NCBI GenBank assembly: GCA_017508285.1
Contig: JAFVZG010000056.1
Coordinates: 1-41,109, forward strand
Length of the DNA: 41,109 nt
Source: Lentisphaeria bacterium
GTDB lineage: Bacteria > Verrucomicrobiota > Lentisphaeria > Victivallales > Victivallaceae
Reading direction: 5' to 3'
Part shown: positions 2,905 to 9,248 of the stretch, in pieces
Position numbering within the stretch: position 1 is the first letter of the stretch
How the letters are laid out: each line of letters starts with the position of its first letter
Position numbers and translations under genes: made by a program
The notes under the pieces: model-generated
Told to the model about the DNA's origin: nothing
The model's input: only the letters and a program-made list of their open reading frames with translations
Databases searched by the model: none

Positions 2905-3912
2905 TCAGAGAGTCTGGCAGACGGTAATGACGATCTCACCGTAGATATCTTCGGCACTGCAGCCGCGGGAGAGGTCGTTCAAGGGGATCGCCAAGCCCTG
3001 AAGCACCGGGCCGTAAGCCTGGGCGTGGGCAAGACGCTGAACCAGTTTGTAAGCGATGTTTCCGGCATTCAAATCGGGGAAGATCAGAATGTTGGCAGCA
3101 CCGCCCAGCGGGCTATCCGGAGCTTTGGATTTCGCCACGGCGGGGACGATGGCAGCATCGGCTTGAATTTCACCGTCGCAGAGGATATCCAGATTTTCAG
3201 CGGCAACTTTATCCGCAAATTTTTTGGCAGCTTCGGAGATCTTCTCCAGAATCTCATTCTGGGCACTGCCCTTGGTGGAGAAGGAGAGGAACGCCACTTT
3301 CGGCTGTTTGCCGATCAAAGCACGGTAGGTGGTGCTGGTCGCCATGGCGATATCCACGAGCATATCGGCATCGGGATTGGGGTTGACGCCGCAGTCAGCG
3401 AACATCAGCACATCATCACCGGCGGGGCTGGGGGTGGCAAGATCCATCACGAAACAGCTGCTGGCGCTTTTGATCCCCGGCGCGGTACCGATGCAGTGGA
3501 AAGCGGCACGGAGCATATCCGCAGTGGAAGCGATACTTCCGGCGACCAGACCGTCAGCCATTTTGTTTTTGCACATCATGGCGGCGAAATAGATGCGGCT
3601 GGAAACCATGGCGAGAGCCTTTTCCGGGGTGACGCCTTTGGCTTTGCGCATTTCATACATCTGGTCAGCGAATTTCTGAAGCAGATCGCTTGCCATGTAA
3701 TCAAGAGTTTCAAATTTGCGTTCAGTAATACCGGCTTCGGCGCAGGCGGCGGAAATTTCCGCCTCAGTGCCGAGAACGATGATGTTTTTGACGACTTTCT
3801 CATCGACGGCTTTGTTGGCGGCGATGACGACTCTCGGATCCTGTCCTTCGGGCAGTACGATGGTGCGCGCCACGGTGCGGGCGCGCTCTGCGAAACGGTC
3901 AATAGCAGACAT
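2905..3912 (-). CDS. pta: Phosphate acetyltransferase
   Basis: 335 residues, the usual length of the short, single-domain Pta. It converts acetyl-CoA and phosphate to acetyl phosphate and CoA in the cytoplasm. The sequence aligns along the family: TIVLPEGQDPRVVIAANKAV at the N-terminus, KMADGLVAGSIASTADMLRA mid-protein, and DGEIQADAAIVP...KSKAPDSPLGGAANILIFPDLNAGNIAYKLVQRL toward the end, the last part being the strongest Pta signature. A GGAG box lies 8 nt before the ATG. It is the second gene of an operon, 20 bp behind ackA, and is followed by a strong terminator. It lacks the regulatory N-terminal domains of the long enterobacterial Pta. Confidence 0.97.
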   Translation of the reverse strand: MSAIDRFAERARTVARTIVLPEGQDPRVVIAANKAVDEKVVKNIIVLGTEAEISAACAEAGITERKFETLDYMASDLLQKFADQMYEMRKAKGVTPEKALAMVSSRIYFAAMMCKNKMADGLVAGSIASTADMLRAAFHCIGTAPGIKSASSCFVMDLATPSPAGDDVLMFADCGVNPNPDADMLVDIAMATSTTYRALIGKQPKVAFLSFSTKGSAQNEILEKISEAAKKFADKVAAENLDILCDGEIQADAAIVPAVAKSKAPDSPLGGAANILIFPDLNAGNIAYKLVQRLAHAQAYGPVLQGLAIPLNDLSRGCSAEDIYGEIVITVCQTL

Positions 3913-3932
3913 TTTTCTTTCTCCAGATTATA

Positions 3933-5135
3933 TTATTTGTCGAAGACGATTTTCTTGGTGGTCAGAGCGATCATCTTTTCCTCATCAGTGGGCATGACGA
4001 TCGCTTTGAGTTTGCTGTCAGCGGTGGAAATGACACCGGCTTTGCCGAAGCAGGCTTCGTTGGCAGCGGCATCCAGTTTGATGCCGATGGGGCCGAGCTG
4101 CTCAAGGATCTTGGCGCGGGTGTTGGTGGAGAATTCACCGATACCGCCGGTGAATACGATCGCATCGGTGTTGCCGACCATCAGGAAGTAACTGCCGATG
4201 TATTTGACGATGCGGCGCACGAACATCTTGATCGCCAGAGCAGCCTGTTCATTGCCGGCAGCCGCCGCTGCTTCCATATCACGCATATCGCCGGTACCGA
4301 TACCGCCGACGCCGAAAAGACCGGATTTTTTGTTGAGGATATTGTCGACTTCACGGGGAGAAGCACCCAATTCGATCATGCGGATGACCGCTGCCGGATC
4401 CATATCACCGGAACGGGTTCCCATCATCAGACCTTCCAGCGGGGTAAGTCCCATAGTGGTATCAACAACTTTGCCGCCTTTGACTGCCGCCATGCTGCAG
4501 CCGTTGCCCAGGTGGCAGGTGATGATATTGGTATCTTCCACTTTTTTGCCGAGGAATTCAGCAGTGGCGAGAGTCACATAGTGGTGGCTGGTGCCGTGGA
4601 AACCGTATTTGCGGATGCCGTACTCTTTGTAGTATTCATAAGGAATGGCATAGAGATAGGCTTCCGGGGGCATGGTCTGGTGGAACTGGGTGTCAAAAAC
4701 CGCCACATTGGGAACGCCGGGGATGGCTTTTTCGCAGGCTTCGATACCGGCGAGGTTGGCGGGGTTGTGCAGGGGGCCGAGGGGGAAACATTCTCGGATG
4801 ATGGCTTTGACATTCTCATCGACCTGCATGGGGAGAGTGATTTTTTCTCCGCCGTGGAGGACACGGTGACCGACTGCACCGATCTCAGAGAGATCTTTGA
4901 TTACTCCGCACTCCGGATCGACCAGTTTTTTGCAGATTTCGGTAAAGGCACCGACATGGTCGGCAACGGGGATTTCCTGAGAGAGTTGGAATCCATCCGG
5001 GCGTTTGTAGACGAGGTTGGGGTTGCTGCTGCCGAGGCGTTCAAAAACACCTTTGGCGAGAACGGCTTCGTTCTCCATTTCAAACAGCGTGAATTTCATT
5101 GAACTGCTGCCTGCATTGACGACCAGAATTTTCAT
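3933..5135 (-). CDS. ackA: Acetate kinase
   Basis: 400 residues, the normal family length. It makes ATP and acetate from acetyl phosphate and ADP (ASKHA fold, cytoplasmic). Visible signatures are VNAGSSSMKFTLF at residues 5-17, VGHRVLHGGEK near 90, FDTQFHQTMP and YGFHGTSHHYV in the middle, and CHLGNGCSMAAVKGGKVVDTT with the GLTPLEGLMMGTRSGD motif. The start at 5135 is preceded by AGGAGG. With pta downstream it forms the ATP-yielding end of pyruvate fermentation, and the PFOR gene 3.5 kb away supplies acetyl-CoA. The order ackA-pta and a shared terminator indicate a single transcript from the promoter at 5189-5217. Confidence 0.97.
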   Translation of the reverse strand: MKILVVNAGSSSMKFTLFEMENEAVLAKGVFERLGSSNPNLVYKRPDGFQLSQEIPVADHVGAFTEICKKLVDPECGVIKDLSEIGAVGHRVLHGGEKITLPMQVDENVKAIIRECFPLGPLHNPANLAGIEACEKAIPGVPNVAVFDTQFHQTMPPEAYLYAIPYEYYKEYGIRKYGFHGTSHHYVTLATAEFLGKKVEDTNIITCHLGNGCSMAAVKGGKVVDTTMGLTPLEGLMMGTRSGDMDPAAVIRMIELGASPREVDNILNKKSGLFGVGGIGTGDMRDMEAAAAAGNEQAALAIKMFVRRIVKYIGSYFLMVGNTDAIVFTGGIGEFSTNTRAKILEQLGPIGIKLDAAANEACFGKAGVISTADSKLKAIVMPTDEEKMIALTTKKIVFDK

Positions 5136-5217: not shown

Positions 5218-5286
5218 CAATTTTGCATTTTTTTTATCAAAATCCGGAAAAATTCAAAAAAAATGGCAAAAAATTTCAAAAAACAG

Positions 5287-5315
5287 TTGAAAAAAGGGGG
5301 GATGTGTGGTAAAAT
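5287..5315 (+). promoter_or_regulatory. Promoter of mraZ and the division cluster
   Basis: TTGAAA (5287-5292), 17-bp spacer and TAAAAT (5310-5315), 35 bp before the first mraZ ATG. The first ATAGG box of the presumed MraZ operator overlaps the -10. Confidence 0.75.
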
Positions 5316-5348
5316 AGGTACGGATAGGAATAAATAGGAGCAAATAGG
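5314..5348 (+). promoter_or_regulatory. Likely MraZ operator: four ATAGG boxes at 10-bp spacing
   Basis: ATAGG starts at 5314, 5324, 5334 and 5344, exactly one helical turn apart, with unrelated bases between. MraZ proteins are known to bind short G-rich direct repeats spaced about 10 bp in front of their own gene and repress it. The boxes cover the -10, the expected transcription start and the ribosome-binding region. The core differs from the TGGG-type boxes described in Escherichia coli. Confidence 0.7.
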
Positions 5349-5349
5349 A

Positions 5350-5859
5350 ATGCAATCGATGTCGGCAGAAAATCTTTTTCCCGGTCTTTTTGTCGGGAAT
5401 TACGACCATGTGCTTGATGCACAGGGGCGGGTTTCTCTGCCCAGCGATTGGCGCAATAAGGATCAGGATACCGAATTGGTCATGATCCCGACCCGCGATC
5501 AGGCGTTGCTGCTTTTGCCGCTGGCTACCTTTATGGAGTTTGTTAGCAAAGCCGGCAAACTGGCGATAGCCAATCCTAAAATGCAGATGGCTCTGGCGTA
5601 TCTCGGCTCGGCATCGCGCCGCTGCCGCTGTGACAAACAGGGGCGTATGGCTCTTGACCGGGAGAAGTTGGATTCGATCGGAGTCGGCAAAAAATTGAAG
5701 CTGATCGGCGCAGTGACGCACATCCGCATTTGCGCTCCGGAAAATTGGAAACAACCGGATAATCCGGATTTTTATCTCAATGAGATCCAGCAGGTAAGCG
5801 ATGGAACTGACGGCTTGGAGGCATTGGGCGGTCTTTTGCAGGGGGTATTCAATAAATGA
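5350..5859 (+). CDS. mraZ: Transcriptional regulator MraZ
   Basis: 169 residues with two AbrB-like half-domains: GNYDHVLDAQGRVSLPSDWR at about residues 17-36 and SRRCRCDKQGRMALDREKL further on; the DxxGR motifs are the family's DNA-contacting signatures. MraZ forms a ring and autoregulates the division and cell wall cluster. It heads such a cluster here and overlaps rsmH by 4 bp. Either ATG 5350 (AGGAG 9 nt upstream, inside the third operator box) or ATG 5359 (AGGA 9 nt upstream, inside the fourth) could be the start, so the operator and ribosome sites coincide. A roughly 20-residue tail after the second domain is a little longer than usual. Confidence 0.95.
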   Translation: MQSMSAENLFPGLFVGNYDHVLDAQGRVSLPSDWRNKDQDTELVMIPTRDQALLLLPLATFMEFVSKAGKLAIANPKMQMALAYLGSASRRCRCDKQGRMALDREKLDSIGVGKKLKLIGAVTHIRICAPENWKQPDNPDFYLNEIQQVSDGTDGLEALGGLLQGVFNK

Positions 5860-6803
5860 GTCAACTTCCGGCATTTGAACATATTCCGGTATTGAAAGAT
5901 GAAGTTCTGCAATATTTGACTTTTGCGGAAGATCATCCGGTGCGCCTGATCGACGGCACAGTCGGCGGCGGCGGACACAGTGCCGCACTGTTGGAAAAGT
6001 ATCCGAAACTGGAGCTTCTCGGTATCGACCGCGACGATATGGCATTGAATGCGGCGGGTAAACGCCTGGCATTTGCCGGCAGCCGGGTGCGTCTGGTGCG
6101 CGGCTGCTATGCCGATCTGGCGGCGATCGCCGTTGAAAACGGCTGGGATCAGGTGGATGGGATACTGCTGGATATCGGGGTTTCTTCTCCGCAGTTGGAT
6201 CTGCCGGAAAGGGGTTTTTCCTGGCGCAATGATGCGGTATTGGATATGCGTATGGATCGCCGTTCCGAATTGACTGCCGGCAGGTGGTTGAACCGGACCG
6301 GTGAAGCGGAGATGGCGAGGGTTTTCCGGGAATACGGTGAGATCCGCCGGGCAGGGGCTCTGGCAAAAAAAGCAGTGGAAATGCGTGAAAATAAACCCTT
6401 TGCCATGACTTCGGATCTGGTCGCTTTGTCAGATGCGGTATTGGGCAGGGCAAAACCGGGGCATCTGCCTCACCCGACATTGGTGTTTCAGGCGGTGAGG
6501 ATCGCGGTGAATGATGAATTGCGCCAGTTGGAAAGCGGTTTGAAATCAGCACTCCGGATGCTGGTACCCGGCGGCAGAGTGGCGGTGATAAGTTTTCACT
6601 CTCTGGAGGATCGTATCGTGAAAAACTTTTTCCGTAAAGAGAGTACTGCTTGTATCTGTCCTCCCGGACTTCCGGTATGCTGCTGCGGGCATGAAGCGGT
6701 TTTGCAGACAGTGACCAGACATGCGGTCACTGCCAAAGAAGCGGAGATCGCCGCCAACAGCCGTTGTGCCTGTGCCAGATTGCGGGTGGCGGAAAAACTT
6801 TGA
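5856..6803 (+). CDS. rsmH: 16S rRNA (cytosine-1402 N4)-methyltransferase
   Basis: 315 residues, the normal length. RsmH (MraW) methylates the N4 of C1402 in the 30S decoding centre using S-adenosylmethionine. Seen are HIPVLKDEVLQYL near the start, the SAM-binding LIDGTVGGGGHSAALLE, GILLDIGVSSPQLDLPERGF, the insert with RAGALAKKAV, HPTLVFQAVRIAVNDELRQL and VISFHSLEDRIVKNFFR. The C-terminal part has a Cys-rich stretch (CICPPGLPVCCCG). The start ATG overlaps the mraZ stop as ATGA, so the two are translationally coupled. This gene order is the classic head of the dcw cluster. Confidence 0.97.
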   Translation: MSQLPAFEHIPVLKDEVLQYLTFAEDHPVRLIDGTVGGGGHSAALLEKYPKLELLGIDRDDMALNAAGKRLAFAGSRVRLVRGCYADLAAIAVENGWDQVDGILLDIGVSSPQLDLPERGFSWRNDAVLDMRMDRRSELTAGRWLNRTGEAEMARVFREYGEIRRAGALAKKAVEMRENKPFAMTSDLVALSDAVLGRAKPGHLPHPTLVFQAVRIAVNDELRQLESGLKSALRMLVPGGRVAVISFHSLEDRIVKNFFRKESTACICPPGLPVCCCGHEAVLQTVTRHAVTAKEAEIAANSRCACARLRVAEKL

Positions 6804-6848: not shown

Positions 6849-7319
6849 ATGTTCAACATTCAACCGGGCAATTCCAGCGGTCGCCGGGTAATCCGGAAAA
6901 GTTCATCTGACAACGGTCAGGGGGTCGATGCACTGTGCGGTTTGTGCGCAAGAGTTTTTCAAACGGCATTGATCCTTCTGGTGATCGGTGCATTTTTCCA
7001 TACCTATATAAAGCTGGATAACGAGATCGACCGTGCCGCATTGGAGATCCGTAAAGTCAATGAAAAGATCGCCGCAGTTGAACGCAATATCGACGGTTTG
7101 AAAGGCCGGTACGCCATTTGCAGTTCCCGGCAGTTCATTATCCGTCAGATCGCCCGTTTCAATTTGCCGCTGGCTCCCATCCGTCACGATCAGCGGCAGG
7201 AAATCCGGCTTTACAGCAATAAGCAGTTGGCAAATCTGCGTTATCCCCTGTTCCGTTCTGTTCCGCCGGTGGCAATGGATATGCGCCGTCAGGTATCCTC
7301 ACGCATGAGGGTACGCTGA
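6849..7319 (+). CDS. ftsL: FtsL-like division protein
   Basis: 156 residues. One transmembrane segment (about 38-55, TALILLVIGAFFHTYIK) is followed by a predicted coiled coil (LDNEIDRAALEIRKVNEKIAAVERNIDGL) and a basic C-terminus. FtsL proteins are poorly conserved and are recognised by this topology and by lying between rsmH and ftsI, as here. In the family it forms a complex with FtsB and FtsQ and activates FtsI/FtsW at the septum. GAGAAAAGAG precedes the ATG at 6849. The periplasmic tail after the coiled coil (RSVPPVAMDMRRQVSSRMRVR) is longer than in typical FtsL. The call rests on position and topology rather than sequence identity. Confidence 0.75.
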   Translation: MFNIQPGNSSGRRVIRKSSSDNGQGVDALCGLCARVFQTALILLVIGAFFHTYIKLDNEIDRAALEIRKVNEKIAAVERNIDGLKGRYAICSSRQFIIRQIARFNLPLAPIRHDQRQEIRLYSNKQLANLRYPLFRSVPPVAMDMRRQVSSRMRVR

Positions 7320-7322
7320 ACG

Positions 7323-9248
7323 ATGAATCATCCTCTGCGGCAGGTCAGAATCAGAATAATATGCTTGGCGGCAGTATGCCTGATGGTGGCATTTGCGCTG
7401 GGCTATCGTTTTTATGTGGTGCAGATCCGCCGTCACGATGAGTTGTATAAGAAGGCCTTGCGCTGGTACACCACCAGTGAGGCAAAAATGAAACAGCGCG
7501 GCAGGATCTACGATGCCGAAGGTAATCTTCTGGTCGGTAATATGCCGCGTATCTATGCGATCTGTTCCCCGTATTCAGTGGTGCATGAACCGTTTGCCCA
7601 TCTGGAAAAATCTCTCAAGCCCGGTATCCGGGAAAGTATTCCCCGCCGCCGTGAGAACCGGAGGAGAAAAGTTGCATCACTGCTTGCACAGCACTTCGGG
7701 CGCAGTGAAAAAGAGTTTTACGATATTCTTGAGCCTTTTGTTCCCCGCCGTGGAGCGGATGGCAAGCCGCGCCGGGATGGATCCGGCAAGGTGATCATGC
7801 GTAAAAATCATCATTTCGTGCTGGATAAAGCCGCTGAACCGGAAACCGTATCCCGCTTCAAGGCGGCAATGAAAGAGGCGGATCTGCATCTGGGCGGATT
7901 CCGTTTTGAAAATATCTTTGTCCGGCATTATCCCAAACGGAGGATGCTTTCCAATGCTCTGGGGTATGCCAATATCGGCAAGGATATTCAGGCGGAGCAG
8001 GGTGGCTTGGAAAAAACCATCGGCAGGGAATTGCGGGCGGAAGACAGCAGTGAGACTTACCAGCGCAGCGGGGACGGCAATATGCTCTCTTACGGTGAAA
8101 GCATGGTCAATGTCGCCGGTCACGACGGCAACGATGTTTACCTGACCATCCGCGAACCGGTACAGGCTATTTTGGAAGAGGAACTGGATAAGGCAGCTGT
8201 GGAGTTCCCGTCTGAAAGCATTTACGCGGTTATCGTCGATCCGCGAACCGGTAATATTCTGGCGATCAGCCAGAGGCCGAATTTCGATCCTCACGATCAG
8301 AGCAGTTTTTCCAATGCCAATCTGAGCAACCGGATCGCTGTCAACGCTTATGAACCGGGATCGGTGATGAAGCCGTTTACCATCGGCAAAGCGTTGGATT
8401 GGGGGGTGATCACTCCTCATACGGTCATTGATTGCGGTTCATCCCGTGATTGGTATTACGGAGGCAGAAGATTGAGTGACTTCCGCGGATACGGCGAGAT
8501 GCCGCCGGGGGGGATTTTGAAAAAATCCAGTAATATCGGTACTGCCAAAGTGGCATTGATGATGGGGGATGAAAAAGTTTACAAAATGCTGCAGACCTAT
8601 AAATTCGGCAAGCGAACCGGATTGCCCTTTGCATCTGAATCCCGCGGCAGACTGCCCCGTTATCCATTCCGGGATAAGGTCACGGTCACCCGTGCGCCGA
8701 TCGGTTACGCCATTCAGGTGACTGCTTTGCAATTGGCAAGGGGATATTGCGCGATTGCCAATAAGGGGATGATGCCGGAATTGCGGCTGCTTGACCGGCG
8801 CAAGATCTCCGCCACCGGGGAGTTTGAAGAGTATCCTTACGCTGAAGCAGTAAAGGTTTTTGACCGGCAGGAAACAGCAGCGGAACTTACTGAAATGCTG
8901 ATTTCAGTTACGGCTCCCGATGGTACTGGCAAGCGGGCGGCGATCCCGGGATACGAGGTGGCGGGGAAAACCGGAACCAGTCAGAAGATCTCGTGGGATC
9001 CGGTGACCCGCAAGCCGTTTTACGGCAACAGTTACCGGGCGACATTCTGCGGTTTTGTGCCGGCAAGACGGGCGGAATTGGTGATGGTCATCACCTTTGA
9101 CGGCGTCAGCGGTGCCAATCACGGCGGCGGTAATGTGGCTGCTCCGGTGTTTCAAAGGACGATGAGCAGAGTTTTACAGCTGCTTAATGTGCAGCCGGAT
9201 GATCCGGAAGCATTGAGCAGATATCTGAGAAAAAATGGCAGTCGCTGA
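7323..9248 (+). CDS. ftsI: Division-specific peptidoglycan transpeptidase (PBP3 type)
   Basis: 641 residues. An N-terminal membrane anchor (about 11-29) is followed by a pedestal domain and a class B PBP transpeptidase domain. The catalytic triad of motifs is complete: Ser347-V-M-Lys350 in EPGSVMKPF, Ser402-S-Asn404 in KKSSNIGTAK, and Lys549-Thr-Gly in VAGKTGTSQK. The family cross-links septal peptidoglycan in the periplasm. The pedestal domain has an unusually Arg-rich stretch (residues ~105-125, PRRRENRRRK). It starts 3 bp after ftsL. Usually murE, mraY and other wall genes follow; here the cluster stops after ftsI, so the rest must be elsewhere. Confidence 0.95.
   Translation: MNHPLRQVRIRIICLAAVCLMVAFALGYRFYVVQIRRHDELYKKALRWYTTSEAKMKQRGRIYDAEGNLLVGNMPRIYAICSPYSVVHEPFAHLEKSLKPGIRESIPRRRENRRRKVASLLAQHFGRSEKEFYDILEPFVPRRGADGKPRRDGSGKVIMRKNHHFVLDKAAEPETVSRFKAAMKEADLHLGGFRFENIFVRHYPKRRMLSNALGYANIGKDIQAEQGGLEKTIGRELRAEDSSETYQRSGDGNMLSYGESMVNVAGHDGNDVYLTIREPVQAILEEELDKAAVEFPSESIYAVIVDPRTGNILAISQRPNFDPHDQSSFSNANLSNRIAVNAYEPGSVMKPFTIGKALDWGVITPHTVIDCGSSRDWYYGGRRLSDFRGYGEMPPGGILKKSSNIGTAKVALMMGDEKVYKMLQTYKFGKRTGLPFASESRGRLPRYPFRDKVTVTRAPIGYAIQVTALQLARGYCAIANKGMMPELRLLDRRKISATGEFEEYPYAEAVKVFDRQETAAELTEMLISVTAPDGTGKRAAIPGYEVAGKTGTSQKISWDPVTRKPFYGNSYRATFCGFVPARRAELVMVITFDGVSGANHGGGNVAAPVFQRTMSRVLQLLNVQPDDPEALSRYLRKNGSR

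Follow-up and report, generated by a model that had tools for sequence, protein, structure and literature searches.

Gene content of the locus

The window, that is, the whole stretch of 41,109 nucleotides analyzed here from a Lentisphaeria bacterium, carries mraZ as the first gene ahead of rsmH in a division and cell-wall (dcw) cluster. MraZ is a known DNA-binding protein, and in many bacteria this cluster is under its control. The genes concerned are the following:

5350..5859, plus strand: mraZ; product matching PF02381 with 45.5 bits (cut-off 23), with the motifs D23-A-Q25-G-R27 and D95-K-Q-G-R99
5856..6803, plus strand: rsmH (mraW); TIGR00006, 312.7 bits; overlaps the mraZ stop by ATGA
6849..7319, plus strand: ftsL-like gene; weak FtsL_COG5462 match of 21.7 bits, below the cut-off
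7323..9248, plus strand: ftsI/PBP2-like transpeptidase gene

The gene at 5350-5859 is a true mraZ. Its product passed the Pfam gathering cut-off for PF02381, while its score of 53.7 bits with TIGR00242 was below the equivalog cut-off of 98.35, which is a threshold for naming and not a family boundary; TIGR00242 was still the best-matching family, with the protein as a divergent member. The AlphaFold2 model (pLDDT 82) displays the two-repeat MraZ fold: it superposed on Mycoplasma genitalium MraZ with its promoter (9r4j) with Z 15.1 over 135 residues at 3.3 Å, and on the M. genitalium four-box promoter complex (9sz7) with Z 14.8, as compared to Z values of 4.3 or lower for unrelated folds. A single-sequence search of the PDB with the protein gave no match. 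Both DxxxR motifs (D23-R27 and D95-R99) were invariant in 24 aligned sequences. Divergently from mraZ, on the minus strand of the window (2905-5135), lie pta and ackA, which by sequence encode phosphate acetyltransferase and acetate kinase.

The box array on the mraZ promoter

The region upstream of mraZ contains the following elements:

5236..5295, plus strand: A-tracts with a 10-bp repeat, just upstream of and through the -35 element
5287..5292, plus strand: -35 element TTGAAA, with a spacer of 17 bp to the -10 element
5310..5315, plus strand: -10 element TAAAAT, with an extended -10 TGG at 5307-5309; conserved in relatives
5314..5318, plus strand: predicted MraZ box 1, ATAGG, fused to the 3′ end of the -10 element
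5324..5328, plus strand: predicted MraZ box 2, ATAGG, at the putative transcription start region
5334..5338, plus strand: predicted MraZ box 3, ATAGG, forming with 5339-5340 an AGGAG that is the likely Shine-Dalgarno of ATG 5350
5344..5348, plus strand: predicted MraZ box 4, ATAGG, Shine-Dalgarno-like for an alternative ATG at 5359

The initial annotation had described four ATAGG boxes at an exact period of 10 bp, lying over the -10 element, the transcription start and the ribosome-binding site, and this description agrees with what is found at 5314, 5324, 5334 and 5344. The -10 element shares its last two bases with box 1; judging from its position, transcription would start at about 5321-5324, near box 2. 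The AGGAG of box 3 (5336-5340) is 9 nt ahead of ATG 5350, and the AGGA of box 4 (5346-5349) is 9 nt ahead of ATG 5359. ATG 5350 is the conserved start among close relatives, where ATG 5359 is mostly missing, and across arrays AGGAG is found most often at box 3, which in the window serves ATG 5350. The A-tracts gave autocorrelation maxima at lags 10 and 20-21, both in the window and over 26 loci, and are likely to constitute curved DNA or an UP-like element that aids the promoter.

The 35-base four-box pattern occurred only once in the window with zero mismatches, and no match with up to three mismatches was obtained in 100 dinucleotide shuffles of the window. When periods from 5 to 20 were scanned, three or more copies of [AT]AGG were found at period 10 only. 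No [AT]AGG array of three boxes was found elsewhere in the same assembly (1.87 Mb, 71% complete).

Conservation of the array

The upstream regions of mraZ were compared, as the initial annotation had proposed, in 25 relatives picked by protein similarity, all Lentisphaeria/Victivallales and including Victivallis vadensis DSM 14823. In 25/25 there were four [AT]AGG boxes, no more and no fewer, spaced by 10 bp; the loss of spacing that the initial annotation had named as a refutation is thus not seen. In the 26 arrays formed by the window and these relatives, AGG was invariant in 104/104 boxes, while the spacer letters differed between boxes and between loci. The ATAGG core initially proposed is therefore too narrow and should be read as [AT]AGG, while its lineage-specific character, considered below, stands.

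Box 1 is fused to the -10 element in the relatives as well, mostly as TAAAATAGG or TATAATAGG, so that the position of the array relative to the promoter does not change. The start codon is 1 nt past the AGG of box 4 in most genus-level loci, in which box 3, often AGGAG, is the Shine-Dalgarno; in other loci it is 6 to 17 nt past box 4, and then box 4 can take that role. Over all loci, the start codon thus shifts from 1 to 17 nt relative to box 4 with the register of the boxes fixed.

These data bear on two readings in which the boxes are no protein operator. They could be repeated Shine-Dalgarno-like AGG sequences that enhance translation initiation, as the distance of boxes 3 and 4 from the start codons and the frequent extension of box 3 to AGGAG might suggest. 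However, box 1, overlapping the -10 element, is probably untranscribed or at the extreme 5′ end of the transcript, the exact 10-bp register was observed in 26/26 loci despite the movement of the start codon, and the same register recurs with a TGG core on the mraZ promoters of other Verrucomicrobiota and on that of a second mraZ (see below). Alternatively, the array could be a recent, functionless tandem duplication, a simple 10-bp repeat. Pure 10-bp tandem repeats do exist elsewhere in the genome of the window, ATGGGAGATC (G000:C23:1835-1878) and TTGGGAATTT (G000:C134:2630-2693), which match the TGG-box pattern by composition; but in the mraZ array only the core is repeated, with spacers that differ from box to box and from one relative to the next, and this core is kept unchanged in different genera. 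Core-only conservation, the fixed register and the location of box 1 at the -10 element lead us to reject both readings, with a very slight residual probability for the Shine-Dalgarno repeats and a negligible one for the tandem duplication.

In a wider sample, 89 of 106 operon-mraZ promoters (a non-redundant, phylum-wide set) had four or more NGG boxes spaced by 10 bp, as compared to 0–9 promoters at other periods and 0.35 in shuffles. From 137 genomes of the order, 30 four-box arrays were fetched, of which 29 were directly upstream of mraZ-rsmH. The few exceptions away from mraZ were tandem repeats (L084 and G118:C16) and one promoter (L267). Because a reversed-pattern control also matched often in some genomes, where tandem repeats are present, the argument about the regulon rests on the location of the arrays and not on their counts. 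Given where the arrays lie, MraZ seems in this order to be dedicated to autoregulation.

The core letter and comparison with known MraZ operators

The letter that changes is the base just before GG, which is A in Lentisphaeria versus T elsewhere in the phylum and in Escherichia coli. Considering arrays of at least three boxes, A was found in 99/106 boxes of the genus-level set, in 187/205 of the rest of the order and in 35/53 of other orders of the class, and T in 49/54 of other Verrucomicrobiota. This, together with the invariance of AGG in the 25 relatives, bears out the lineage-specific core that had been suggested at first.

As in the known MraZ operators, at least three direct repeats with a 10-bp period lie on the mraZ promoter, but the GTG/TGG core is replaced by AGG, both in the window and in the operon mraZ promoters of Lentisphaeria, and because of this the array is classified as a variant of the MraZ operator. 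Other Verrucomicrobiota also have four boxes, period 10 and the same gene order, but with a [GA]TGGGG core and a Lys-type MraZ instead of [AT]AGG and Gln. In Burkholderia cenocepacia, PmraBc carries at the start site four repeats of 7 nt separated by 3 nt, to which MraZ binds in gel shift (PMC7761207); they are laid out as in the window, downstream of the -10 element and over the start site, but have a GTG-type core that the window boxes lack. The GTG motif of the MraZ site has been described as conserved in distant bacteria (PMC7761207). The Mollicutes operator, (AAAGTGKN3)3 (PMC5282649), and the M. genitalium four-box complex (9sz7, 9r4j) share with the window the period of 10 bp, the MraZ fold and an arrangement of several boxes along a single promoter face, and differ in the GTG core and the Lys of the first DxxxR loop, against AGG and Gln in the window. 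E. coli Pmra (mraZ1p; L196), read as a control, also has direct repeats at a 10-bp period just upstream of mraZ-rsmH, but with only three good boxes (GTGGG ×3), plus a fourth, degenerate G-rich repeat at the ribosome-binding site, compared to four [AT]AGG boxes in the window with box 1 fused to the -10 element.

The G-rich fourth repeat of E. coli and, in the window, the location of boxes 3 and 4 over the ribosome-binding site could be taken to mean that MraZ, acting on these boxes in the mRNA leader, also blocks translation. The initial annotation had proposed such a dual use; the overlap with Shine-Dalgarno sites is real, but the translational repression is unsupported. The known complexes (9r4j and 9sz7) are with promoter DNA, we know of no RNA binding by MraZ, and the overlap is explained by a short leader with a core that happens to resemble a Shine-Dalgarno. 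A translational block is thus given a slight chance.

A second MraZ in Lentisphaeria

An unlinked paralogue, here named MraZ2, is present in many Lentisphaeria. Of 115 genomes sampled from the phylum, 20 had it, and these were all Lentisphaeria; it was not found in the incomplete assembly of the window, nor in several near relatives with completeness of at least 90%. In nearly all the loci examined, there are between four and six [AT]TGG boxes on the promoter of mraZ2 itself, mainly [AT]TGGA, spaced by exactly 10 bp, and when the order was searched for four [AT]TGG boxes, most matches were mraZ2 promoters. The period and the number of boxes are like those of the window, while the core ([AT]TGGA versus AGG), the loop (Asn/Ser-type versus Gln) and often the downstream genes differ. 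In many loci, mraZ2 is followed by genes for a small membrane protein, a protein with a PBP-dimerisation domain (PF03717) and an FtsW/RodA protein (PF01098), as in the operon at L190:6526-9345 and some 30 further loci alike; the PBP-dimerisation protein of L190 has 235 amino acids, and no transpeptidase domain was found there. In the genus of the window, what comes after mraZ2 is instead a gene for a small protein and then unrelated genes. From this second MraZ-headed operon, with FtsW/PBP-like products, it would seem that Lentisphaeria regulate two cell-wall modules separately.

In the phylogenetic tree, operon MraZ and MraZ2 formed separate clades with support of 100/99 each; MraZ2 grouped with E. 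coli on long branches, which make the root of the tree unsure. A limited literature search returned no paper on a second MraZ or on a MraZ site of Lentisphaeria, which is weak evidence of absence. MraZ2 with its [AT]TGG boxes, and the relationship between loop residue and operator core considered below, go beyond the initial annotation.

A candidate residue for operator recognition

At the third position of the first DxxxR motif, 31/31 sampled operon MraZ proteins of Lentisphaeria have Gln, which is Gln25 in the window. Lys stands there in 85% of other Verrucomicrobiota as well as in E. coli, M. pneumoniae and M. genitalium, and 95% of MraZ2 proteins have Asn. When this residue was tabulated per locus against the base before GG, leaving out 25 Lys-type and 9 Gln-type loci without a clear array in the scan, the counts were Gln-A 86, Gln-G 4 and Gln-T 1; Lys-T 28, Lys-A 3 and Lys-G 1; and, for the MraZ2-type residues, Asn-T 23 and Ser-T 3. 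Two of the three Lys-A cases (L210 and L219) are register slips within GTGGGG repeats, and the 86 Gln-A cases are not independent, because the operon MraZ of Lentisphaeria is a single clade.

So, the third residue of the first DxxxR follows the operator core, Gln going with AGG, and Lys, Asn and Ser with TGG. Since few independent evolutionary changes lie behind this link, it is a strong lead and not proof. Gln may be the residue that reads the changed base. The association bears also on the idea that the array is the operator of a regulator other than MraZ, to which only a very small likelihood can be assigned: the array co-occurs with mraZ and is found almost nowhere else in the searched genomes, and its core changes along with the recognition loop of MraZ.

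Proposed mode of action

Very probably, then, MraZ uses the boxes as an operator to repress its own promoter and with it mraZ-rsmH-ftsL-ftsI, the core having changed from TGG to AGG with the Lys-to-Gln replacement. From what the family does elsewhere, we infer that MraZ binds the boxes and acts as a repressor. The MraZ ring would bind the four boxes through its recognition loops, on one face of the helix and one turn apart, and would cover the -10 element, the start site and the early transcribed region up to the start codon. Bound MraZ would keep RNA polymerase from opening or leaving the promoter, such that abundant MraZ would shut off its own operon, the division and cell-wall cluster. In Lentisphaeria, the core has gone from TGG to AGG along with Lys to Gln in the first DxxxR loop. 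With a class-wide AGG core, a covarying loop residue and a paralogue that has TGG boxes at the same period, this class offers a natural experiment in the reading of direct repeats by a ring-shaped repressor, and the covariation between residue and core yields a prediction at a single residue, Gln25 to Lys.

A more tentative reading, which we hold at somewhat less than an even chance, is that Lentisphaeria have two insulated repressors, MraZ (Gln) acting on the AGG boxes of division genes and MraZ2 (Asn/Ser) on the TGG boxes of PBP-like/FtsW genes, with the third DxxxR residue as the switch. If true, this would provide a readable recognition code for MraZ and a case of paralogue insulation.

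Two other observations concern loci outside the window. The exceptional promoter mentioned above (L267:755-788, corresponding to G048:C57:8254-8287) has four [AT]AGG boxes over a TATAAT promoter, before a gene for a GntR-type-looking regulator; judged from the sequence, it is possibly an extra MraZ target, or a chance occurrence. Finally, two mraZ-rsmH loci, each with AGG arrays, were present in a single assembly in two instances, L268 and L269 in G117, and L056 and L058 in the metagenome bin SIG96; these may be mixed bins or duplicated clusters.
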